Source: Bacteroidia bacterium (lineage in GTDB: Bacteria > Bacteroidota > Bacteroidia > B-17B0 > Aurantibacillaceae). From it: a stretch of DNA of 35,548 nucleotides. The stretch lies in the NCBI GenBank assembly GCA_025451115.1, contig JANWKZ010000033.1:1-35548 (forward strand), in the 5' to 3' direction. The stretch's first letter is position 1; each line of letters starts with the position of its first letter. Positions 5,712-28,250 of the stretch are shown in pieces. The notes beneath the pieces were generated by a model. That model had not been told where the DNA came from, ran no database searches, and saw only the letters and a program-made list of their open reading frames with translations. The position numbers and the translations under genes were made by a program.

Positions 5712-6461
5712 GTGGAGTTCATCCGTATAATCTTTTCTACTATCTGGAAGATCTGGTTCTTTCTTGTTTTCGCAAGCATCCTGCTTTTGATCTATCCTTT
5801 CCTGCTTATTTTTCTTTCTAACCGTCGTCGCTATAAATACGCTTTTGCCTGCCAGCACATCATGGCCCGCTGGATCACCTGGCTCAGTGGACTTTTTATT
5901 AAAAAAGTATATGAAATTCCGAAGGACAAATTACCGCAACCTTGTGTGATCGTAGCTAATCACTCGTCTTACCTCGATATCTGTTTCAGTTATCTGCTGA
6001 TCAAAAAATACTTTGTGTTCATGGCCAAATTGGAACTGAACAAGGCTCCTCTCTTCAGCATTTTCTTCAAGGATATGCAGATCTCCGTTGACCGCAAAAG
6101 CCGAATGGACGCTCACCGCGCTTTCTTAAGAGCCCAGGAAGAAATTGACGCGGGCCACAGTGTTTTTATCTTTCCGGAAGGAACTATTGCTAATGAAGGT
6201 GAATTGAAAAATTTCAAGAACGGCCCTTTCAAACTGGCTATCGATATGCAGGTACCTATTCTACCCATCACCTTTACAAATAACTGGAAATTACTGCAGA
6301 ACGGGGGCTTTTTCAAGAGCTTTGGTCGACCGGGTCTTACGAAGGGCATTGTTCACATGCCTATTGACACCAAGGGAATGACCGAAGAAAATGTTGTACC
6401 TTTGCGGGAAGCAGTTTATAAGCTGTTTGACGAAACGCTAAAAGCAGAACGAACAAAATGA
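5712..6461 (+). CDS. 1-acyl-sn-glycerol-3-phosphate acyltransferase (PlsC-like), GTG start
   Basis: NHSSYLDI (NHX4D) and FPEGT acyltransferase motifs; N-terminal TM segment. Confidence 0.9.
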   Translation: MEFIRIIFSTIWKIWFFLVFASILLLIYPFLLIFLSNRRRYKYAFACQHIMARWITWLSGLFIKKVYEIPKDKLPQPCVIVANHSSYLDICFSYLLIKKYFVFMAKLELNKAPLFSIFFKDMQISVDRKSRMDAHRAFLRAQEEIDAGHSVFIFPEGTIANEGELKNFKNGPFKLAIDMQVPILPITFTNNWKLLQNGGFFKSFGRPGLTKGIVHMPIDTKGMTEENVVPLREAVYKLFDETLKAERTK

Positions 6462-16751: not shown

Positions 16752-16849
16752 AAGAGGTTTACGAAAGCAGCAGGAACCATCCCGATATACATCGGAACAG
16801 GCGCCGAAAACAGCTAAGGAGGCAGCCCACAGAGGTCACAGAGAACAGC

Positions 16850-16880
16850 CATAAAAGAAAAAGGAGCTCTGTAGCTCCTT
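16850..16880 (-). terminator. Intrinsic terminator for the DUF2795 gene
   Basis: Perfect 8-bp stem AAGGAGCT-CTGT-AGCTCCTT; on the minus strand followed by TTTCTTTT. Confidence 0.75.
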
Positions 16881-16881
16881 A

Positions 16882-16909
16882 TAACTTTTAACTTATTACT
16901 TCTAACTTC
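16882..16909. repeat. Heptamer tandem array (TAACTTT)(TAACTTA)(TTACTTC)(TAACTTC)
   Basis: Four in-phase 7-nt words, ending 2 nt from the DUF2795 stop codon. Confidence 0.75.
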
Positions 16910-16911
16910 CC

Positions 16912-17133
16912 TTAATATTCATCTTCATTAAAGAAGAAGTCGTCCTTGGAAGGATAATCGGGCCATATTTCTTCTATGGTCTCATAAGATTCTCCTTCGT
17001 CTTCTATCTCCTGCAGGTTTTCTATTACTTCCATGGGTGCACCCGAGCGCATGGCAAAATCGATCAACTCGTCTTTTGTCGCCGGCCAGGGCGCATCTTC
17101 TAACCACGATGCCAATTCAAGTGTCCAATACAT
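16912..17133 (-). CDS. DUF2795-like small acidic protein
   Basis: 73 aa, MYWTLELASWLEDAPWPATKDELIDFAMRSGAPMEVIENLQEIEDEGE; strong SD AAAGGAGA upstream. Confidence 0.8.
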   Translation of the reverse strand: MYWTLELASWLEDAPWPATKDELIDFAMRSGAPMEVIENLQEIEDEGESYETIEEIWPDYPSKDDFFFNEDEY

Positions 17134-17140
17134 AAAATTC

Positions 17141-17148
17141 TCTCCTTT
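17141..17148 (-). promoter_or_regulatory. Strong Shine-Dalgarno (AAAGGAGA) for the DUF2795 gene
   Basis: Minus strand GAAAGGAGAGAATTTTATG; 7-nt spacer to the ATG. A second AGGAGG lies at 17170-17175. Confidence 0.75.
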
Positions 17149-17297
17149 CGGGGTTTCCGGGGGTAATTTCCTCCTCGACCCTCAATTTTGTGCAAAACAA
17201 TAAAATTTTTCATTGTTTCCACTATTTTTAGAGAATTTTAATTAACTGGATATAAACAATTTAGAAGAATGTAAGGCTCCCGGAGGCCTCAGCGGCC

Positions 17298-17969
17298 CTA
17301 GTTGATCGAATCCAGCTTCTTCTTAACTACCTCTACGACCTTTTTCTGGGCTTCGATCTCTGTCTTTTTGGTCTCAATGTCCTTTTTGTTCTTCTCTATA
17401 TCCTCCTTGGCCTTTTTGATCTTCTCTTCGTAGTTCTTGATATCGTTCTCAAGGTCCTTATTGTCCTTTTCCAGGTCTTTTTGCTTGTCTTGCAGCTTTA
17501 CCAACATTTTGTTCTGCTCTTTCCATTGGTCTTCTACAAACTCCTTCGAGGTTTTAACAGCCCATTCTTTTATCAGCTTTTTCATAAAGTCGGCCTCCTT
17601 GCCATGACTGCCAGAGCTTACATAATCCCCACCCATATCAACGGCTACCGACATTTCCACCGATTTATCACTTTTCTTTTCTTCAAATTTGGTATATACA
17701 TCCATCGGGTTATTGGAGAGTTCTTTGAACTTCACATTATCAAAAAAATGCTCGTTGCCTTTGTCCTTATGGTCGCCATAGCCGAAGTCCTTCATTTTGC
17801 TTTTCCATTCTTTCTGCACCTTGTTGATGTCTTCTACAAAAACAGTGACTTTAAAGGCATTATGACTGCCGCTGCTAAAGCTTTCGCTGGATTCCTTGAT
17901 CTTCACCTCCTGGGCTAAAAGACCCGCGCAGATCATTACAAAAGCTACTGAAAGTATTTTCTTTACCAT
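17298..17969 (-). CDS. Exported hypothetical protein with C-terminal charged coiled coil
   Basis: Signal peptide MVKKILSVAFVMICAGLLAQ; ~75-aa K/E/D-rich C-terminal heptad region. Confidence 0.75.
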   Translation of the reverse strand: MVKKILSVAFVMICAGLLAQEVKIKESSESFSSGSHNAFKVTVFVEDINKVQKEWKSKMKDFGYGDHKDKGNEHFFDNVKFKELSNNPMDVYTKFEEKKSDKSVEMSVAVDMGGDYVSSGSHGKEADFMKKLIKEWAVKTSKEFVEDQWKEQNKMLVKLQDKQKDLEKDNKDLENDIKNYEEKIKKAKEDIEKNKKDIETKKTEIEAQKKVVEVVKKKLDSIN

Positions 17970-18048
17970 GGTTCGTTGTTTTTATTGGTTAAATATAGAA
18001 AATTAATACAAACCTTATGCCACCCGTTATGCTTTACACAATTCCAAT

Positions 18049-18080
18049 AAAAAAGTCCATCCGCATGGCGAAAGGACTTT
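18049..18080 (-). terminator. Probable intrinsic terminator of the 18102-20726 gene
   Basis: AAAGTCC/GGACTTT 7-bp stem; minus strand ends GGACTTTTTT. Confidence 0.6.
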
Positions 18081-18101
18081 CAAACTCAATCGATTAAGAA
18101 C

Positions 18102-20726
18102 CTATTGCTTAGCCTCATCCATGATGGCTTTCAGCTTGTTCTTGGTGGCGGTAACTTCAGCCAAACGCTTCGTGGAAGCGTCGTCCTTTTTGCTTACCAA
18201 CTCATCTTCTTTATCCTGGTAATTGTTATAGAAATCCTTCAGTACTTTCTGGGCCACGTAACGCACATAGGTATTTCCTTTTCCTTTGGCGGTATATCCT
18301 TTAATGACCTCCGCACCGGCAATTACATTCGCGTCGCTGCAGCGTTTCAAGAACTGGCCATACATATTGATGAAGCCCATGGCCATAAAACCACTAAAAG
18401 AATCCTTATTCTTTATAAAGAACTCATTATTTCCGTCGTCGCCGTAGTTAGAGTAAAGGTCCATCAAAGTAAAGCGGATGTTATCGCTATCTATGTTCTC
18501 CAGGTCTTTCGCCTTTTTCATTGCGGCCTGGGGATCGTTCTTGGCTAAGGCAGCAAGACCTGATCCGAGAATGGCAAAAGACTGCTCGCCCAAGGCAGCA
18601 GTATAGATCTCTTTTACATCATCTCCTTTGTAATTTTTAGAGAGGAATTCGATCGCCTCGGCGCGAACGGTTGTTTTCTCATCGCTTTTGGCAACTGAGA
18701 TCATGAAAGGTTTCAGTTCAGCTTCTTTTGAAGAAGCTACCTCATCCAGGAGATTGATAGCCTTAATACGCAGTGTGTGCCATTTGTCTTTTACAGCCAG
18801 CTTCACGCAGTCATACACATTTGCTTCACCCAGATTTGATTTGAACTTATCCAATGCTTCAAGCCTGTCAACATACTTGGGAGCGTTCTTGTACTGGTAA
18901 ACATATTCAGCCGTGGTCTTGTTCTCGATCTTGGTGCAGAGCAATGATTTCTCGCCATCAAAATTCACCAACATAGGTTTTTCGTCTGAATCAAAAGTGA
19001 ATTCCTGCTTAGCGTTAGAAACTGTAACCCATTCGCGGCGTACTTTTTTAGAAGCACCTTCTCCGTAATACAGATCTATGAAAACAGGCAATTTGAACAA
19101 AGGAGCAAGTTCAAAATCCTGCTGTTGGGCAACATTTACTTTCACTTTTTTAGAAGCCGCGTCGTAGCTGTAATCAATTTTCAGCTCGGGATAACCGCCC
19201 GCGTAGTACCATTGATTCCAGAACCAGTTCAGGTCCTGCCCGGTAACTTCTTCAAATGCCAGGCGCAATTGGTGCGCTTCACCTGTTTTGAATTTATTTG
19301 TTTCGAGATAGAGTTTCAACGAAGCGAAGAAAGCATCATCACCTACCACTTTACGCAGCATGTGCAGGATCTGTCCGCCTTTGTTATAGCTGATGCCGTC
19401 GAAAACTTCTTCGCGCTGCTCATAACCAAAGCGCACCAGCGGCTCCATTTTGCTCTGTGCCATATAACCCTGGCGACTGTTATAGCCATGCGCATCGGCC
19501 GCATCGGGACCATTTTTATACTCCTGCCACATGTACTCGCCATAGGTAGCGAAAGATTCATTCACTGTAATATTGCTCCAGCTTTCGCAGGTAACAAGAT
19601 CACCGAACCACTGGTGGAACAATTCATGAGAAATAACATTCTCTCCGCGTTTGCCATCCAGCATCTCGCGATCTGTTTGGTAAACCGAGAAATCGCCATG
19701 TAAAGTTGCCGAGGTGTTTTCCATCGCGCCACTCACGTAATCACGTACTACGATCTGCGCGTATTTAGGCCAGGGATAAGCAACTCCCAATTTCTTAGAG
19801 AAGAAGTCTATCATTTCAGGTGTATTACCGAAGATACCTTTCGCATAAGGCTCATACTCCTTTTCTACATAATAGCTGATCTCTTTTCCGTTCCAGGGTT
19901 TGTCGAGTACTTTTTTGAATTCCCCTACACCCATCATCACAAGATAAGGCGCATGTGGCATATCCATTTTCCAATGGTCGGTACGCGTACCGTCGGTATT
20001 TTTAGTTTGTTTCACCAAAAGACCATTCGATAAAGTGATGTATTTCTCCTCCACGGTCATCATGATCTCGTTGGTCATACGCTCATTCGGGCTATCCACA
20101 GTGGGGAACCAGGCTGAGTTACTTTGTGTTTCACCCTGCGTCCAGATCTGGGGCATTTTATTTTTCTCTTCGCCTTTAGGATTGATGAAGTACAAACCTT
20201 TATCGCTGTTGATGGCCTGGCTGCCACCCGCTTTCAATTCATTTGGTTTCGATTTGTAATCGATGAAGACAGTGAATTTATCATTGCGGGTGTATTCTTT
20301 ATCCAGGTGGATGAGTAAAGAATCGTTCTCGTAAGTATATTTCAGATCCGTATTTCCTTTAGCACCCACAATTTGCACTTTGTAGATATCCATACCGCGC
20401 GCATTGAGGTACATTTTTTTGATGGGATAGAAATACGGCTTGATCTCGATATTGGCTTTTCCTAAAAGCCAGGAATTTTGCCAATCAAATTTCACGTCCA
20501 GCTTCGTGTGCAGGATATCGATACTGCGGGGATTGGTGCCCTGGTACCTCTTAGGCTCAGGCGGACCCTTTTTGCCATCCACCACAAGCGTATCGGCATT
20601 GATGGTGATAGTATTTACATCTTCTTCTTTCTCTATTTCTTTATCTTTTTTTCTTTTGCGCTGGGCAAATGAATTTTCGCTCAATAGAAGTAAGGCAACC
20701 GTGCAGAGAAAAATGTGCTTTAACAT
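18102..20726 (-). CDS. M1 family metallopeptidase (aminopeptidase N-like) with C-terminal HEAT-like region
   Basis: GAMEN motif (VSGAMENTSATLHGDF) and HELFHQWFGDLVTCESWSNITVNESFATY. Confidence 0.93.
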   Translation of the reverse strand: MLKHIFLCTVALLLLSENSFAQRKRKKDKEIEKEEDVNTITINADTLVVDGKKGPPEPKRYQGTNPRSIDILHTKLDVKFDWQNSWLLGKANIEIKPYFYPIKKMYLNARGMDIYKVQIVGAKGNTDLKYTYENDSLLIHLDKEYTRNDKFTVFIDYKSKPNELKAGGSQAINSDKGLYFINPKGEEKNKMPQIWTQGETQSNSAWFPTVDSPNERMTNEIMMTVEEKYITLSNGLLVKQTKNTDGTRTDHWKMDMPHAPYLVMMGVGEFKKVLDKPWNGKEISYYVEKEYEPYAKGIFGNTPEMIDFFSKKLGVAYPWPKYAQIVVRDYVSGAMENTSATLHGDFSVYQTDREMLDGKRGENVISHELFHQWFGDLVTCESWSNITVNESFATYGEYMWQEYKNGPDAADAHGYNSRQGYMAQSKMEPLVRFGYEQREEVFDGISYNKGGQILHMLRKVVGDDAFFASLKLYLETNKFKTGEAHQLRLAFEEVTGQDLNWFWNQWYYAGGYPELKIDYSYDAASKKVKVNVAQQQDFELAPLFKLPVFIDLYYGEGASKKVRREWVTVSNAKQEFTFDSDEKPMLVNFDGEKSLLCTKIENKTTAEYVYQYKNAPKYVDRLEALDKFKSNLGEANVYDCVKLAVKDKWHTLRIKAINLLDEVASSKEAELKPFMISVAKSDEKTTVRAEAIEFLSKNYKGDDVKEIYTAALGEQSFAILGSGLAALAKNDPQAAMKKAKDLENIDSDNIRFTLMDLYSNYGDDGNNEFFIKNKDSFSGFMAMGFINMYGQFLKRCSDANVIAGAEVIKGYTAKGKGNTYVRYVAQKVLKDFYNNYQDKEDELVSKKDDASTKRLAEVTATKNKLKAIMDEAKQ

Positions 20727-20899
20727 GTTTTATTTTTTTACAAATTTTGAATTATTAGGCAAGCAGGGTCCGCTTTTATGATGAGCGGCACGGGTTGCAT
20801 AACGGAACACAAAAATACTATTTAATTCAGGTTTAAAGAGGGACTTTAAGAATGTTTATGCCTGAAAATGAGCAAAATCCCCCTAAATGCGGGACAGTA

Positions 20900-22069
20900 T
20901 TAGCTATAAAAACGGGTGCCCGAGGCAGCCATTTGTTTGAGCAGGAAAGAAGGACGGTAACGGTCGTCGCCGTAATCATCCTGAAGCTGTTTTAATTGGT
21001 TGTACACGTTGGCAACTCCCAATTCATCAGCCCATTTCAGAAGTCCCTTAGGATAGTTCACGCCTTTGGTCATGGCCAGGTCGATATCTTCGCGGCTACC
21101 GATCTGCAGGTACAAAGCGTCGGCCGCTTCATTGATCAGCATCGCAATTACGCGATTGAATATTTTTTCGGCAAGGGCGTTATCTTTTTTAGGTTGTGGC
21201 AATTCCGCTGCGGTATAATCGTAAAAACCACGGGCGCTTTTCTTACCGTAAAAACCGGCTTCCACCAAACGTTTCTGGCAAAGGTTGGGGCGGTAACGGG
21301 GATCGTTATAGAACTGGCGCCATACGGTTTCCGTTACGGTGTAATTCACATCGTGACCAATGAGGTCGGTCAATTCAAACGGACCCATTTTAAATCCTTT
21401 TTCGCGCAGCGCCCAATCAATGGTAGCGATATCGGCGATACCTTCTTCAAAAATGCGCATCGCTTCGCCGTAATACGGACGGGCAATACGGTTCACGATA
21501 AAACCGGGTGTATCTTTGCAGATCACGCAAACCTTACCCCAGCTTTCAATTAATTTTTTGCAGGATTGCACGGTAGAATCATCTGTAGCAATGCCGGGAA
21601 TGATCTCTACTAAGGGCATCAAAGGTGCCGGGTTGAAAAAATGAATGCCGATCACATTCCGCGGGCGCACTACTGCAGCGCCAATGGAAGTAACAGATAA
21701 AGAAGAAGTGTTTGTGGCAAGAATGCATTTTCCTTCGGTTGTTTTTTCAAGCAAAGCAAAAACCTGTCGCTTGATATCGAGATTTTCTACGATGGCCTCG
21801 ATCACGAGGTGACATTCGTGCAGGTGTATTGCTTTTTCGGCAAAAGTAATTTTAGAAACGATCGCATGCGCCTGTTCGGCAGTGACCTTTTGTTTCTCAA
21901 CCAATTTGGCAAATGTCATCGCAAGCGTATGCTTGGCCTTACCCAGCATTTCCATATTGTTATCGTAGATCAATACGCGGTGCCCTGCCGTAGCCGCCAC
22001 CTGCGCAATGCCGGTGCCCATAGCCCCGCTGCCTACAATACCAATTATAGATTTATCATTTAACTCCAC
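20900..22069 (-). CDS. 3-hydroxyacyl-CoA dehydrogenase, GTG start
   Basis: IGIVGSGAMGTGIAQVAATAGH Rossmann; ATNTSSLSVTSI; GIHFFNPAPLMPLVEII; KDTPGFIVNRI; two C-terminal domains. Confidence 0.93.
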   Translation of the reverse strand: MELNDKSIIGIVGSGAMGTGIAQVAATAGHRVLIYDNNMEMLGKAKHTLAMTFAKLVEKQKVTAEQAHAIVSKITFAEKAIHLHECHLVIEAIVENLDIKRQVFALLEKTTEGKCILATNTSSLSVTSIGAAVVRPRNVIGIHFFNPAPLMPLVEIIPGIATDDSTVQSCKKLIESWGKVCVICKDTPGFIVNRIARPYYGEAMRIFEEGIADIATIDWALREKGFKMGPFELTDLIGHDVNYTVTETVWRQFYNDPRYRPNLCQKRLVEAGFYGKKSARGFYDYTAAELPQPKKDNALAEKIFNRVIAMLINEAADALYLQIGSREDIDLAMTKGVNYPKGLLKWADELGVANVYNQLKQLQDDYGDDRYRPSFLLKQMAASGTRFYS

Positions 22070-22075
22070 TCGATG

Positions 22076-22113
22076 TAAAATTTAAAATTTGAAATTTTCA
22101 ATTTTAAATATTT
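22076..22113. repeat. Heptamer array/palindrome (TAAAATT)(TAAAATT)(TGAAATT)(TTCAATT)(TTAAATA)
   Basis: Five in-phase 7-nt words filling nearly all the 44-nt intergenic and ending at the frr stop; near-palindrome ATTTAAAATT...AATTTTAAAT. Confidence 0.7.
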
Positions 22114-22677
22114 CTAAACGGTCATTATTTCCTTCTCTTTTGCCTCCAGGTGCTTATCGCACTTGGTCACATACTGATCGGTAAGGGTCTGTATCTTTCC
22201 TTCCGCGTCTTTAGCTTCATCTTCAGGCAGACTGGTGCCTTTCAATCTTTTCACACCTTCCATAGCGTCTTTACGCGCGGTACGGATACCTACTTTCGCG
22301 TCTTCAGCCTCCTGTTTTGCTTTTTTCACCAGGTCACGTCGACGCTCTTCGGTCAAAGGCGGAATGGAGATGCGGATCAGCACGCCGTCGTTCTGGGGGT
22401 TAAGTCCCAGGTTGGCGGCCTGTATAGCTTTTTCAATAGGAGTAAGCATAGCTTTTTCCCAGGGTTGAATTACGAGGGTACGGGCGTCCTGGGTATTTAC
22501 GTTAGCGGTTTGGCTAATGGGCATTTTGGTCCCATAATAGTCAACCTGCACATTATCCAGCATGGCCGGATTGGCCTTACCGGCCCGTATCTTGGCTAGT
22601 TCCACTTCAAGGTGGTCAATGGCTTTGTCCATGCCGGCTTTGGCGATATCGTGCACTTTCTGTACTTCAGGGTTCAT
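22114..22677 (-). CDS. frr: Ribosome recycling factor
   Basis: 187 aa; HLEVELAKIRAGKANPAMLDNVQVDYYGTKMPISQTANV; LTEERRRDLVKKAKQEAEDAKVGIRTARKD. Confidence 0.97.
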   Translation of the reverse strand: MNPEVQKVHDIAKAGMDKAIDHLEVELAKIRAGKANPAMLDNVQVDYYGTKMPISQTANVNTQDARTLVIQPWEKAMLTPIEKAIQAANLGLNPQNDGVLIRISIPPLTEERRRDLVKKAKQEAEDAKVGIRTARKDAMEGVKRLKGTSLPEDEAKDAEGKIQTLTDQYVTKCDKHLEAKEKEIMTV

Positions 22678-22696
22678 AGCGTAAAATTTAGTAGGA

Positions 22697-22704
22697 CAAA
22701 AATA
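22697..22704 (-). promoter_or_regulatory. Bacteroidota -7 promoter element TATTTTTG for frr
   Basis: TAnnTTTG on minus strand, 19 nt before the frr ATG. Confidence 0.5.
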
Positions 22705-22718
22705 ACATTTTTTAGAGA

Positions 22719-22803
22719 AGTATAAGGAGTAAGTTTAAGGAGTAAGGAGATTAACATTAAATCAACAAAACCGCCTCTTAAACTTATACTTGCTCCTTAT
22801 ACT
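22719..22803. repeat. Intergenic compound palindrome built of TAAGGAG-type heptamers
   Basis: Perfect arms AGTATAAGGAG (22719-22729)/CTCCTTATACT (22793-22803) and TAAGTTTAAG (22730-22739)/CTTAAACTTA (22777-22786). Confidence 0.8.
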
Positions 22804-22817
22804 ATTTGGATTTTTTT

Positions 22818-22825
22818 TACTTTTG
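22818..22825 (+). promoter_or_regulatory. Bacteroidota -7 promoter element TACTTTTG
   Basis: TAnnTTTG match 14 nt before the ATG at 22840. Confidence 0.5.
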
Positions 22826-22839
22826 AAAAAAGAATCAAA

Positions 22840-23448
22840 ATGGCAAAAAAAGACCCCCGTGTTGACGCCTATATCACCAAAGCACAGCCTTTCGCGCAGC
22901 CGGTTTTGAAGCATTTAAGAAAGCTAGTTCACCAGGCTTGTCCGGAGATTCAGGAGACCATTAAATGGGGCATGCCTTCGTTTGAATACAAAGGTCCGTT
23001 TTGCGGCTACGCTTCTTTTAAACAGCACTGCACTTTTGGGTTCTGGAAAACAGCTTTGCTGAAGGATCCTAAAGGTGTACTGGAAGCAAGAGAAGAAGCT
23101 ATGGGAAGTTTAGGCAGGATAACCGGCATGAAGGATCTTCCATCCGATAAGGTTATACTTGGTTTTTTGAAGCAAGCAAAGGAGCTTAACGACAAAGGCG
23201 TGAAACTTCCTCCCCGCAAAAAAACTACGGAAACCGCTGTTCCCAAAATGCCTTCTTACTTTAAACGAGCGCTCGACGCCAATAAAAAAGCCGCGGCTCA
23301 ATTCGAGAAATTTCCTCCCGGGCAGAAGAAGGAATACATCTTATGGCTGACTGAAGCAAAAACAGAAGAGACCCGCGAGCGTCGCCTCGAAACCGCCATC
23401 GAGTGGATCAGCGAGGGAAAAATAAGGAACTGGAAGTACGTAAAATAG
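22840..23448 (+). CDS. YdeI-like / DUF1801 family protein
   Basis: LRKLVHQACPEIQETIKWGMPSFEYKGPFCGYASFKQHCTFGFWK and C-terminal FPPGQKKEYILWLTEAKTEETRERRLETAIEWISEGK. Confidence 0.9.
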   Translation: MAKKDPRVDAYITKAQPFAQPVLKHLRKLVHQACPEIQETIKWGMPSFEYKGPFCGYASFKQHCTFGFWKTALLKDPKGVLEAREEAMGSLGRITGMKDLPSDKVILGFLKQAKELNDKGVKLPPRKKTTETAVPKMPSYFKRALDANKKAAAQFEKFPPGQKKEYILWLTEAKTEETRERRLETAIEWISEGKIRNWKYVK

Positions 23449-23560
23449 ATACGAATTACGAATCTGGCCCGAATATACGAATCAGCTGTAGGCTTCAATC
23501 CATTGCAAATTAAATACCTACCATTCGTATATTCGTTTGGCTGTTATTCGTAATTCGTAT
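23449..23560. repeat. Intergenic compound palindrome built of TACGAAT/ATTCGTA heptamers
   Basis: Perfect 15-bp arms ATACGAATTACGAAT (23449-23463)/ATTCGTAATTCGTAT (23546-23560) and 13-bp inner arms CGAATATACGAAT (23470-23482)/ATTCGTATATTCG (23523-23535). Confidence 0.85.
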
Positions 23561-23633
23561 CCCAATATATCCCCCTTTTTGAGGTTTTGGTTTGTTGCAT
23601 AATTCCATAAATTAGCTCCCTCAAATCAAATCC

Positions 23634-26600
23634 ATGAAATTTTTAAAATTAGCCGTTGTGCTCAGTTTCGCCTGTTTTTCTGCTTCAGCGCAAAAAGATC
23701 CCCAGATCGCGAGCAAGCCTCGTGATAAAAAAGCGGAAACCAAACCTGTCGACAAAGATCCGTTACATAATACGTCAACATTTTCTCCGTTCAAATTCCG
23801 CAGCATCGGTCCGGCTATGATATCCGGCAGGATCATCGATCTTGCTGTGAACCCAAAAAATAAATCAGAATACTATTTAGGCGTAGCCTGCGGCGGCGTT
23901 TGGAAGACCACCAACAACGGAACAAATTTTCAACCCATCTTCGACGGACAAGGCTCTTATTCTATCGGATGTGTAACACTTGATCCCACGAACCCGAGCA
24001 TTGTTTGGGTAGGCTCGGGAGAGAATAATAACCAACGGAGTGTCGCTTATGGAGACGGTGTATACAAAAGTGAAGACGCAGGAAAAACATGGAAGAACGT
24101 CGGGCTTTCTAAATCAGAACACATTGGTAAGATCGCCATCGATCCAATGGATGGAAATATTGTTTACGTAGCAGCCTATGGTCCCTTGTGGAGCGCGGGC
24201 GGCGAACGCGGTATTTACAAAAGCACCGACGGAGGAAAGACCTGGAAACAGATACTGAACGTAAGCGAAAATACAGGCTTCAATGAAATTCACATCGATC
24301 CTTCGAACAGGAACACGCTTTATGCCTGTGCACACCAACGTCGCAGGCACGAATGGACGTATATCAGCGGCGGGCCTGAGTCTGCGGTTTATAAAAGCAC
24401 CGATGGCGGAACTACCTGGAACAAATTAGGTGGCGGTTTGCCAAGCGGTGATGTAGGAAGGATCGCGTTAGCAGTCTCTCCTGTAAATTCAGATTATGTA
24501 TTTGCCATGGTGGAAGGCGATGAGGAAGGAAAAGGACTTTACCGCAGCTTAGACCGCGGCGCAAGCTGGGAGAAAAGAAGCAGTCACACTACAGCCGGAA
24601 ATTATTACCAGGAAATTTTCTGCGATCCCAAGAATGCCGACAAGATCTATTCAATGGACACCTGGCTCAAGGTGAGTTACGATGGAGGAAAAACTTTCTC
24701 GGGCCTGGGCGAAAAGAACAAGCATGTGGATAACCACGTTATCTATGTTGATCCTGATAATACTTCTCATTACCTCGTGGGTTGTGATGGCGGCTTATAC
24801 GAAAGTTTCGACATGGCCAAGACCTGGCAATTTAAAGCCAACATTCCTATTGTGCAATTCTATCGTGTTACAACCGATAACGCTACGCCTTTCTATAATG
24901 TGTATGGCGGAACACAGGATAATAATTCCTGTGGTGGGCCATCACGTACTATTAGCGCTTCCGGTATCATTAATTCGGATTGGTTCATTACCGTTGGCGG
25001 AGATGGGTTTAAAAGTGTGGTAGATCCGCAGGACCCGAACATCGTTTATTCAGAATGGCAATATGGCGGATTGATCCGTTACGATAAAAAAACAGGTGAA
25101 GTATTTGATATTAAACCGCAGGAAAAAGACGGCGAAGCAGCTTATCGCTGGAATTGGGACGCACCTTTGGTGATCAGTAATTTTTCAAACACACGCGTTT
25201 ATTTTTGCGCTAATAAAGTATTTCGCAGCGACGATCGCGGCAATACCTGGAAAACGATCAGCGGAGATCTTTCGAGCGGAATAGACCGGAATAAATTACC
25301 GGTGATGGGCAAAGTTTGGAGCATGGATGCAATTGCTAAAAATCAGTCGACAACCATTTATGGAAATATCACCGCATTCAATGAGTCACCCAAAAATGAG
25401 AATGTGTTGTATGCCGGAACTGATGACGGATTGATCCACGTAACAAATGATGGTGGAAATACCTGGACGAAGATCTCTTCTTTTGCCAACGTGCCCGCGC
25501 AAACAAAATGTCAGAATATCACTCCGTCTCAGTATGATGAGAATGTGGTATACGCCACATTCAACAATCACCGCAGCGGCGATTTCAAACCCTATCTTTT
25601 AAAAAGTACAGATAAGGGAAAGACCTGGACGAACATCAGCAATAATTTACCTGAAAGAGGAAGTACTTATTGCCTCGCGGAGGATTTTAAGAACCCGAAA
25701 TTACTTTTTTGCGGCACCGAGTTCGGATTGTTCGTTTCTCTTGATGGCGGTCAGTTCTGGACGCAAATGAAGAACGGCCTCCCTACTATTTGTGTACCCG
25801 ATATCGCTATTCAGAAAAGAGAGACCGATCTTGTACTGGCCACTTTTGGAAGAGGTTTTTACGTGCTGGATGATTACTCGGCCTTACAAAGCATAAAGAA
25901 GGAGAATTTCGAAAAACCTGCTACTATGTTCCCGATCAAGGACGCGATCGTGTTCGTTCCTTCCCAACCGCTTGGCCACAAAGGAAAATCTTTCCAGGGC
26001 GAATCTTTTTTTACAGCGGAGAATCCACCGGCAGGCGCCGCTATTACGTATTATTTAAAGAACGACTACAAAACCCTCAAAGAAAAACGGAAGGACGCCG
26101 AAAAAGAAAAAGTAAAGGCCAATCAACCTGTATTTTATCCGACTGCTGATTCTATGCGACTGGAAGATAAAGAAGAGGCGGCCTATGTTCTTTTACAGAT
26201 CAGCGACGAGCAAAGCAACGTGATCCGCAAACTGAAGCAAAGTGCAAAAAAAGGAATGTATCGCGCCTATTGGGACGGTCGCATGGCCCGCACCAATCCT
26301 ATCAGTTTTTATACGCCAGATCCGGACAACCCATACGAAAGTGAAGACATGGGGCCGCTTGTAATACCGGGGAAATATTTTGCTTCCCTGCATTTGGTGA
26401 AAGGTGATGGAACTACCGAAACCCTTTCTGAACCACTCGCCTTTAACATCAATTCTTTAAATAATGCTACGATCCCGGTTGCAGATAAAAAAGCACTTCA
26501 GTCGTTCTATGTTAAACTGGCCGACCTGCGCAAAGTGATCTTAGGAACCTCCTCTTACCGCAACGAAATGCGCAATCGTACTAAATTCATTAAAACAGGT

Positions 26601-26957
26601 TTACAACAATCGCAGGGAAATAATTTAAACCTGCTGGCCGAAGTAAAACAGGTTGAAAAGAAGCTGGATGAGATAGAACTGGCTCTGGATGGCGATAACA
26701 GCCTTGCCAAACATGAGTTTGAAACCGTGCCCGGCCTCGTAGGTCAAATTGAGAATGTGATAAGCAACCTCTATGGCACAACAGCTATGCAGTCGAAAAC
26801 CTATGAAGATGTATATGAGAAAGTTAAGAAAGCTTTTGGCTCAGTATACACGAACGTAAAAAGTACCGACGAAACCTTACGTAACCTGGAGAAAAAACTG
26901 GACGGAACGGGACTTCCGTATACCCCGGGCAGATTGCCGGCCTATAACGCCAATTGA
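23634..26957 (+). CDS. Large exported Asp-box (BNR/VPS10-sortilin-like) beta-propeller protein
   Basis: 1107 aa; signal peptide; repeated S-x-D-x-G-x-T-W boxes (KSTDGGKTWK, KSTDGGTTWN, RSDDRGNTWK, KSTDKGKTWT). Confidence 0.9.
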   Translation: MKFLKLAVVLSFACFSASAQKDPQIASKPRDKKAETKPVDKDPLHNTSTFSPFKFRSIGPAMISGRIIDLAVNPKNKSEYYLGVACGGVWKTTNNGTNFQPIFDGQGSYSIGCVTLDPTNPSIVWVGSGENNNQRSVAYGDGVYKSEDAGKTWKNVGLSKSEHIGKIAIDPMDGNIVYVAAYGPLWSAGGERGIYKSTDGGKTWKQILNVSENTGFNEIHIDPSNRNTLYACAHQRRRHEWTYISGGPESAVYKSTDGGTTWNKLGGGLPSGDVGRIALAVSPVNSDYVFAMVEGDEEGKGLYRSLDRGASWEKRSSHTTAGNYYQEIFCDPKNADKIYSMDTWLKVSYDGGKTFSGLGEKNKHVDNHVIYVDPDNTSHYLVGCDGGLYESFDMAKTWQFKANIPIVQFYRVTTDNATPFYNVYGGTQDNNSCGGPSRTISASGIINSDWFITVGGDGFKSVVDPQDPNIVYSEWQYGGLIRYDKKTGEVFDIKPQEKDGEAAYRWNWDAPLVISNFSNTRVYFCANKVFRSDDRGNTWKTISGDLSSGIDRNKLPVMGKVWSMDAIAKNQSTTIYGNITAFNESPKNENVLYAGTDDGLIHVTNDGGNTWTKISSFANVPAQTKCQNITPSQYDENVVYATFNNHRSGDFKPYLLKSTDKGKTWTNISNNLPERGSTYCLAEDFKNPKLLFCGTEFGLFVSLDGGQFWTQMKNGLPTICVPDIAIQKRETDLVLATFGRGFYVLDDYSALQSIKKENFEKPATMFPIKDAIVFVPSQPLGHKGKSFQGESFFTAENPPAGAAITYYLKNDYKTLKEKRKDAEKEKVKANQPVFYPTADSMRLEDKEEAAYVLLQISDEQSNVIRKLKQSAKKGMYRAYWDGRMARTNPISFYTPDPDNPYESEDMGPLVIPGKYFASLHLVKGDGTTETLSEPLAFNINSLNNATIPVADKKALQSFYVKLADLRKVILGTSSYRNEMRNRTKFIKTGLQQSQGNNLNLLAEVKQVEKKLDEIELALDGDNSLAKHEFETVPGLVGQIENVISNLYGTTAMQSKTYEDVYEKVKKAFGSVYTNVKSTDETLRNLEKKLDGTGLPYTPGRLPAYNAN

Positions 26958-26981
26958 TCCCGTTTCTTATAAAAAGCCTAT

Positions 26982-27011
26982 GATCCCCTTCAAAAAAGGG
27001 GATCTTTTTTT
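26982..27011 (+). terminator. Strong rho-independent terminator
   Basis: Perfect 9-bp stem GATCCCCTT-CAAAA-AAGGGGATC followed by TTTTTTT. Confidence 0.92.
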
Positions 27012-27069
27012 ACTGATTTTTCCGGCCTCCTATTTCCAAAAAACATAACTTTACCCAAAATTCTAACCC

Positions 27070-28161
27070 ATGTCACTCACCGCCACACAAACCAAAGTAC
27101 ACAACTTCAGCGCCGGACCCGGCATTTTACCACAAGAGGTATTGAAACAAGCCGCCGAAGCCTGCATCAATTTCGATAACATGAACCTTTCTTTGCTGGA
27201 GATCTCGCATCGCAGCAAGAATTACGAAAAGGTAATGGAAGAAGCGCGCGCGCTGATAAAGGAACTTTTTGAAGTGGGCGACGAATACGAAGTTCTGTAT
27301 CTGGGCGGAGGTGCCAGCTTGCAATTTGCTATGGTTCCCTATAACCTGATGCGCGAAGGAGGTTCGGCTGCCTATGTCAGCACCGGTGTATGGGCCAGTA
27401 AAGCTATTAAAGAAGCCAAGATCATCGGCACTACCAATGTGATCGCTTCTTCAGAAGACAAAAAATTCACCTACATCCCCAAAGGATATCAAATTCCGAC
27501 CGACGCAGATTATTTACATATCACATCTAACAATACGATCTACGGAACGCAAATGAAATCGTTCCCCAAGTCGCCGATACCTATGGTTTGCGACATGAGT
27601 TCTGATATTTTCAGTCGTAAAGTCAATGCCAAAGATTTCGCACTGATCTACGCGGGCGCACAGAAGAACATGGGTCCTGCCGGATCTACAATGGTAATGG
27701 TAAGAAAAGATGTACTTGGAAAAACCGGCCGCAAAATGCTAAGCATGATGGATTACCAGGTGCACATCAAGGGAGGAAGCATGTACAATACGCCCCCGGT
27801 GTTCCCCATTTACGTTACTTTACTTACACTGCAGTGGCTTAAAAAGAACGGCGGCATCAGCTGGATCGAAAAGGTGAACCAGGAAAAAGCCGATTGCCTG
27901 TATAACGAGATCGATCGCAATAAACTCTTCTTCGGAACTGTTGCAAAGGAAGACCGCAGCAATATGAATATCTGCTTCCTGCTGCATGATGTTAAGCTGG
28001 AACCCGAATTCGATAAACTCTGGAAAGAAGCCAATATCAGCGGCATTCGGGGTCACCGCGATGTGGGTGGTTACCGTGCTTCTACCTATAATGCCCTGCC
28101 ACTGGAAAGCGTGAAGGCTTTGGTAGAGGTAATGCAGGAGTTTGAAAAGCGCTTTTCTTAA
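27070..28161 (+). CDS. serC: Phosphoserine aminotransferase
   Basis: VHNFSAGPGILPQEVLKQA; LLEISHRSKNYEKV; LYLGGGASLQFAMVPYNL; IYAGAQKNMGPAG; GHRDVGGYRAS. Confidence 0.97.
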   Translation: MSLTATQTKVHNFSAGPGILPQEVLKQAAEACINFDNMNLSLLEISHRSKNYEKVMEEARALIKELFEVGDEYEVLYLGGGASLQFAMVPYNLMREGGSAAYVSTGVWASKAIKEAKIIGTTNVIASSEDKKFTYIPKGYQIPTDADYLHITSNNTIYGTQMKSFPKSPIPMVCDMSSDIFSRKVNAKDFALIYAGAQKNMGPAGSTMVMVRKDVLGKTGRKMLSMMDYQVHIKGGSMYNTPPVFPIYVTLLTLQWLKKNGGISWIEKVNQEKADCLYNEIDRNKLFFGTVAKEDRSNMNICFLLHDVKLEPEFDKLWKEANISGIRGHRDVGGYRASTYNALPLESVKALVEVMQEFEKRFS

Positions 28162-28250
28162 CAGCCGTGATTAGTGATTGGTGGTTAGTGATTAGGTCAC
28201 TATATACTTAAACCCACTATTCACCAGTCACTAAGCACTAATCACGGCTG
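28162..28250. repeat. Intergenic palindrome made of 4 + 4 inverted GTGATTA-type heptamers
   Basis: 15-bp perfect arms CAGCCGTGATTAGTG (28162-28176)/CACTAATCACGGCTG (28236-28250); words at 28167-28194 and 28218-28245; starts immediately after the serC stop. Confidence 0.88.

Follow-up and report, generated by a model that had tools for sequence, protein, structure and literature searches.

The tandem-heptamer arrays of the window (the whole stretch of DNA analysed, 35,548 nt) are probably, though by a modest measure, dispersed non-autonomous hairpin repeats resembling REP elements or MITEs, in which inverted arms of tandem 7- or 8-nt words surround a short loop or core. The non-autonomous element family offered in the original prediction was thus the best fit, in an altered form: several sequence-defined families with a common architecture fit best, rather than one class defined by its period alone. 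The analysis showed dispersal in multiple copies, a patchy phylogeny, fixed polarity, co-variation of the arms, and orthologous junctions at which the element is missing or something else stands in its place. Taken together, the multiple copies, their polarity, the co-varying arms and the turnover of sites indicate dispersed hairpin elements with slipping tandem-word arms.

Five elements of the window and their sequence families

The host genome, G000, is a fragmented Bacteroidota assembly of 2.75 Mb in 235 contigs (73.6% complete). All five sequences first reported were present in the window, and period 7 was independently reported by TRF at four of them (16878, 22076, 22723, and 28167). Element 16882 (16878..16909, plus strand) is a single arm, TTATAACTTTTAACTTATTACTTCTAACTTC, of ACTTMTR heptads without a hairpin of its own, and its fold was absent (z +0.6). 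Element 22076 (22073..22109, minus strand) consists of TAAAATT/AATTTTA heptads, lies between the frr stop and the next start codon, and forms a short, weak hairpin (z −1.3 as RNA, −1.9 as DNA). Element 22719 (22719..22803) is the inverted pair AGTATAAGGAGTAAGTTTAAG ... CTTATACTTGCTCCTTATACT with divergent genes on either side, and it folds well (RNA z −6.0/−4.5). The same is true of element 23449 (23449..23560; RNA z −9.2), a TACGAAT-family inverted element immediately 3' of the TAG stop of the ORF at 22840-23448, and of element 28167 (28162..28250; RNA z −8.1), a GTGATTA-word inverted element immediately 3' of the serC TAA stop, in whose best RNA fold the right arm keeps a 7-nt bulge equal to one heptad. 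Palindromic folding, initially ascribed to all five, therefore holds for three of them, is weak for element 22076, and fails for element 16882. No T tract follows elements 23449 and 28167, and a comparison with Rfam gave no match above a family's gathering score in or around the window elements.

That the elements share a period and not a sequence proved to be only locally true, since four of the five belong to sequence families that recur in G000. The exact 14-mer of the TACGAAT family, TACGAATTACGAAT, occurs at 24 sites in G000, at 0-1 in each of six congeners, at 23 in G025 (a genome from another family), and at 6 in G013; read backwards as a control, it was found 0 times in every genome counted. 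About 20 copies are ordered as GATACGAATTACGAAT, a spacer of 4-9 nt, TACGAATATACGAAT, a unique loop, and then the inverse, and half elements also occur. Because the loops of the TACGAAT copies in the host genome all differ, the copied unit there is not the whole arm-loop-arm structure. For the family of element 22719, GTATAAGGAGTAAG has 8 sites in G000, 0 in the congeners, and 2 in G014, and a perfect copy with 26-bp arms lies at L249 1988-2097. The ACTTMTRACTT word of element 16882, counted as ACTTMTRACTTMTRACTT, has 9 sites in its own genome, 1 in the six congeners, and 13 in G023; a near-identical sibling, TTATAATTTTTAACTTATAACTTCTAACTT adjoining AACAGCC, lies in contig C57 (L250 ~12600). 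The GTGATTA word of element 28167 recurs in contig C220 (L285 2405) with the same AACAGCC-GTGATTAGTGATTA boundary. No sequence family was found for element 22076.

Several other palindromes were seen in these genomes. TACGAAT arms in both G000 and G025 enclose a further palindrome, CCCGATAGCTATCGGGA (or CCCGATGGCTATCGGGA), at the sites L283 11333-11383, L289 105-141, and L291 10093-10149. In one intergenic region, L282 3730-3875, the TACGAAT left arm is present three times, nested or in tandem, and one of these arms has AACAGCC in its spacer. The palindromes GTCATGCTGAACTTGTTTCAGCATC, CTTCGACTCCGCTCAG, and TTCCCCCTTCGAAGGGGGAA are also dispersed in the host genome (L020 9458-9618, L247 5739-5822, L003 4384-4428, L024 8321-8500, and L237 10208-10346).

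Three of the five window elements have the heptamer AACAGCC/GGCTGTT: element 28167 at its left foot (28160..28166, plus strand), element 23449 within its right arm (as GGCTGTT, 23539-23545), and element 16882 nearby (16844..16850, plus strand), where the motif belongs to a composite repeat at ~16785-16853. Among the intergenic heptamers of G000 it ranks first in over-representation (35 regions versus 4.8 expected), with 41 intergenic occurrences in 0.9 Mb, or 0.63/kb versus 0.17/kb in coding DNA. It adjoins or sits within arrays of differing words, and for 14 of 43 occurrences an array is no more than 10 nt away, versus 4.9% expected, a somewhat inflated figure because sampling was done partly by TACGAAT sites. 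One might suppose that a word-independent generator in Bacteroidota writes and rewrites both hairpin arms with 7-8-nt words through a joiner specific to the genome (AACAGCC in this case), which would preserve architecture and site while the sequence turns over; we regard this as a long shot. The composite repeat itself, in which the palindrome ATCCCGATATACATCGGRAC is followed by AACAGC motifs and a CACAGAGGTCACARAG segment, has at least two copies, the other lying at L033 ~5960-6045.

Periodicity and placement of the arrays

A 7-nt periodicity independent of the word, beyond that expected by chance, was confirmed in the host genome and in relatives by a scan against dinucleotide shuffles. In a 502,729-base sample of the host genome, which takes in the window that prompted the finding, 13 period-7 arrays were detected in 36.8 kb of intergenic sequence versus 1.6 ± 1.3 in shuffles, and period 7 topped all other periods from 3 to 15. 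The sample of relatives, from which the window is excluded, comprised 79 independent frr-neighbourhood loci of other Bacteroidota and yielded 41 period-7 arrays versus 8.1 ± 3.2 after shuffling. Array density was ~35 per 100 kb in intergenic DNA versus only 1-4 per 100 kb in coding DNA, where no period-7 enrichment was seen.

A strict and exclusive period of 7 did not survive the comparison. In the 79 loci of relatives period 8 was nearly as enriched (34 arrays versus 7.6 shuffled), and the Chitinophaga frr loci held 12 period-7 and 11 period-8 arrays; given the enrichment of period 8 in relatives, the repeat unit is 7-8 nt and not strictly 7. In a 389-kb sample of the same-genus genome G003 there was no clear period-7 excess (4 versus 1.6), indicating that the trait is patchy. 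The proposed phasing of all words as TAA-N4, with its stop codon, was accounted for by composition and was discarded: 54% of distinct words carry TAA on one strand versus 47 ± 6% of letter-shuffled words.

In the host genome, 42% of arrays start no more than 5 nt from a stop codon versus 16% under random placement (p 0.0004), and the same trend, not significant, was seen in Chitinophaga and the other samples (p 0.18 and 0.13). Genes were called by a simple longest-ORF caller, which places stop codons more dependably than start codons. Seven of the 33 array-bearing regions of the host genome lie between divergent genes, as element 22719 also does, a position that does not fit a 3'-end role. Some Chitinophaga copies have a T tract at their end or enclose a terminator core, and others lie within operons or between divergent genes. 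Considering this mixed placement, we infer that the elements may act as hairpins at mRNA 3' ends or between cistrons.

Hairpin arms and site turnover in Chitinophaga

The Chitinophaga arrays are hairpin arms with fixed polarity. An inverted partner within 160 nt was found for 10 of the 12 period-7 arrays and 10 of the 11 period-8 arrays and for none in shuffled sequence. Exact 18-mers of the AATTACG word number from 22 to 583 in eight Chitinophaga genomes. The arrangement TTACGAATT-N20-50-AATTCGTAA was matched 177 times per strand in nine Chitinophaga genomes (overlapping matches counted), and the reverse arm order gave 0 matches in twelve genomes. The copies of C. niastensis have a common conserved core that is imperfectly palindromic.

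The two arms also vary together. Co-variation was assessed in copies picked by eye among the matches listed, 13 from C. niastensis (in one register) and 12 from C. hostae, the latter selected solely by their outer 9 bp. In C. hostae the unconstrained inner stem was 77% Watson-Crick paired versus 42 ± 5% when arms were re-dealt among copies (0 of 2000 deals as high), and in C. niastensis the stem was 86% paired versus 80 ± 2% (p 0.0005). Two other candidate signatures were rejected. G·U outnumbered A·C mismatches, as a mark of RNA-level selection, by 39 to 23 in codirectional Chitinophaga hairpins and by only 9 to 5 in the periodic ones, and transition-only variation among copies was not seen.

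Could these arrays be ordinary heptanucleotide simple sequence repeats, arising by independent slippage that favours 7-nt units at each locus, with the inverted copies incidental? Heptanucleotide over-representation in prokaryotes is already known, where, among repeats with 5-11-nt units, they are the commonest in many genomes according to Mrazek 2007, as far as the citing articles relate it (PMC4679880, PMC4692102). Single arms have also expanded alone: in the eiseniae and fulva loci one arm has 1 match and the other 8 or 16 overlapping matches. Since single arms lengthen alone, slippage seems to act as well, as the original prediction had allowed for a slippage- or copy-based generator. As the sole origin, however, it is unlikely, because the arrays recur as word families within one genome, inverted partners far exceed those in shuffles, polarity is strict (177 to 0), and the arms co-vary.

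When the same junctions were compared in eleven Chitinophaga species, a given junction was empty in some, occupied by a plain hairpin or terminator in others, or filled by a hairpin of heptads or octads whose words differed. At g04>g05 the gap is 5-6 nt in two species, three species have AATTACG hairpins, two have octad hairpins with other words, and two have a plain hairpin. At g18>g19 either a plain terminator or a T-tract-ended heptad hairpin is found, and some T-tract-ended Chitinophaga copies occupy the sites of intrinsic terminators in relatives. At the frr 3' junction, heptads are absent in same-genus congeners of the window genome, and in G013 there are TTGTACC heptads with an inverted arm. 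At g16>g17 (L073 and L099), two Chitinophaga species were seen to have a common loop, ATACGGCCCTGTATCC, between arms that are unrelated and yet still complementary.

Such junctions, at which one species has a plain terminator where another has a heptad hairpin ending in a T tract, and the GC-rich terminator cores in the loops of several elements, are what would be expected if the elements were plain intrinsic terminators that evolve in place and merely have exceptionally long stems. However, elements also occur in 5-11-nt operon gaps without T tracts (g04>g05, g16>g17) and between divergent genes, and word families of fixed polarity require dispersal rather than evolution in place, which makes this explanation quite improbable. 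Another proposal is that a word-independent generator, such as a telomerase-like reverse transcriptase or a hairpin-templated polymerase, puts 7-8-nt words into both arms. One architecture is indeed common to many different words within a genome (the G025 sample), and a 7-8-nt unit is, by analogy, like that of telomerase repeats. We consider it very unlikely, given that the words recur as families and that slippage and dispersal explain most of the features.

Relation to known repeats and a possible life cycle

Like REP elements and BIMEs of the GTAG and CGTC super-families (PMC3733652), the repeats described here are palindromic units dispersed through extragenic space, form inverted dimers with variable spacers, lie mostly 3' of genes, and often end at stop codons. 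Unlike them, they have arms of tandem 7-8-mers and stems of up to ~37 bp. Movement by REP-associated tyrosine transposases (RAYTs) as classical REP elements would account for palindromes that are dispersed 3' of genes, often at stops, as single units or inverted dimers (PMC3733652), and atypical REP-like structures are known to adjoin TnpA-REP genes in Bacteroidetes (PMC6006769). The expected transposase and tags were missing, however. The Y1 transposase (PF01797) was not found in G000 (74% complete) or in four of eight Chitinophaga genomes, namely C. solisilvae, the richest of all (583 18-mer matches), C. niastensis, C. hostae, and C. qingshengii, so that the richest genomes lack a RAYT gene. 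In the 8 full TACGAAT copies examined, no GTAG/CTAC lay within 8 nt of the ends, and no CGTC was seen in the flanks listed for them. Mobilisation by RAYTs is therefore largely refuted for the high-copy genomes, and for the elements as a whole we think it decidedly improbable.

With MITEs and other small inverted-repeat elements, the repeats have in common that they are short, AT-rich, multicopy, and patchy, have inverted ends, and lie at sites that are empty in relatives; they differ in that no target-site duplication was found. In the 8 full TACGAAT copies the longest abutting direct repeat was 2 nt, and the mean was 0.25 versus 0.71 for re-dealt flanks. Intrinsic terminators resemble them in the position after stop codons and in the T tract or GC-rich loop core of some copies, and differ from their long tandem-word arms, their dispersed families, and their copies within operons and between divergent genes.

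The cyanobacterial STRRs are heptanucleotide simple repeats. Like this class, the arrays are intergenic, have a tandem 7-nt unit in excess of shuffled sequence, vary in copy number, and are patchy across phyla; unlike it, they comprise many words per genome, have inverted arms of fixed polarity, and show period 8 nearly as commonly. GGGAATC heptanucleotide repeats have been described in Xanthomonas (PMC4692102), and a 2025 survey found repeats with 6-9-bp units enriched in some prokaryotic phyla and a high repeat density in Bacteroidota (PMC12699852). The earlier statement that no such class is described for Bacteroidota was too strong, since TAACTGA heptanucleotide repeats have been published for five Bacteroidetes, together with Beggiatoaceae and Cyanobacteria (PMC4679880). 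For the combination seen here, no description was found in the open-access literature searched, an incomplete literature.

If the elements are dispersed hairpin repeats, short intergenic gaps would be where new copies insert or are retained, as a rule directly against a stop codon. The number of words in one arm could then shift through replication slippage, and arm complementarity may be maintained because selection acts on the hairpin or through template switching from arm to arm. In the transcript, hairpins at the 3' end or between cistrons might serve in mRNA protection or processing. Should this reading be right, a common and apparently unnamed type of Bacteroidota repeat would join the literatures on heptanucleotide repeats and REP palindromes, and would account for the strong differences in gene junctions between sister species in these genomes. 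Chitinophaga, being cultivable and carrying up to hundreds of copies, would then be a system for finding the agent of dispersal.
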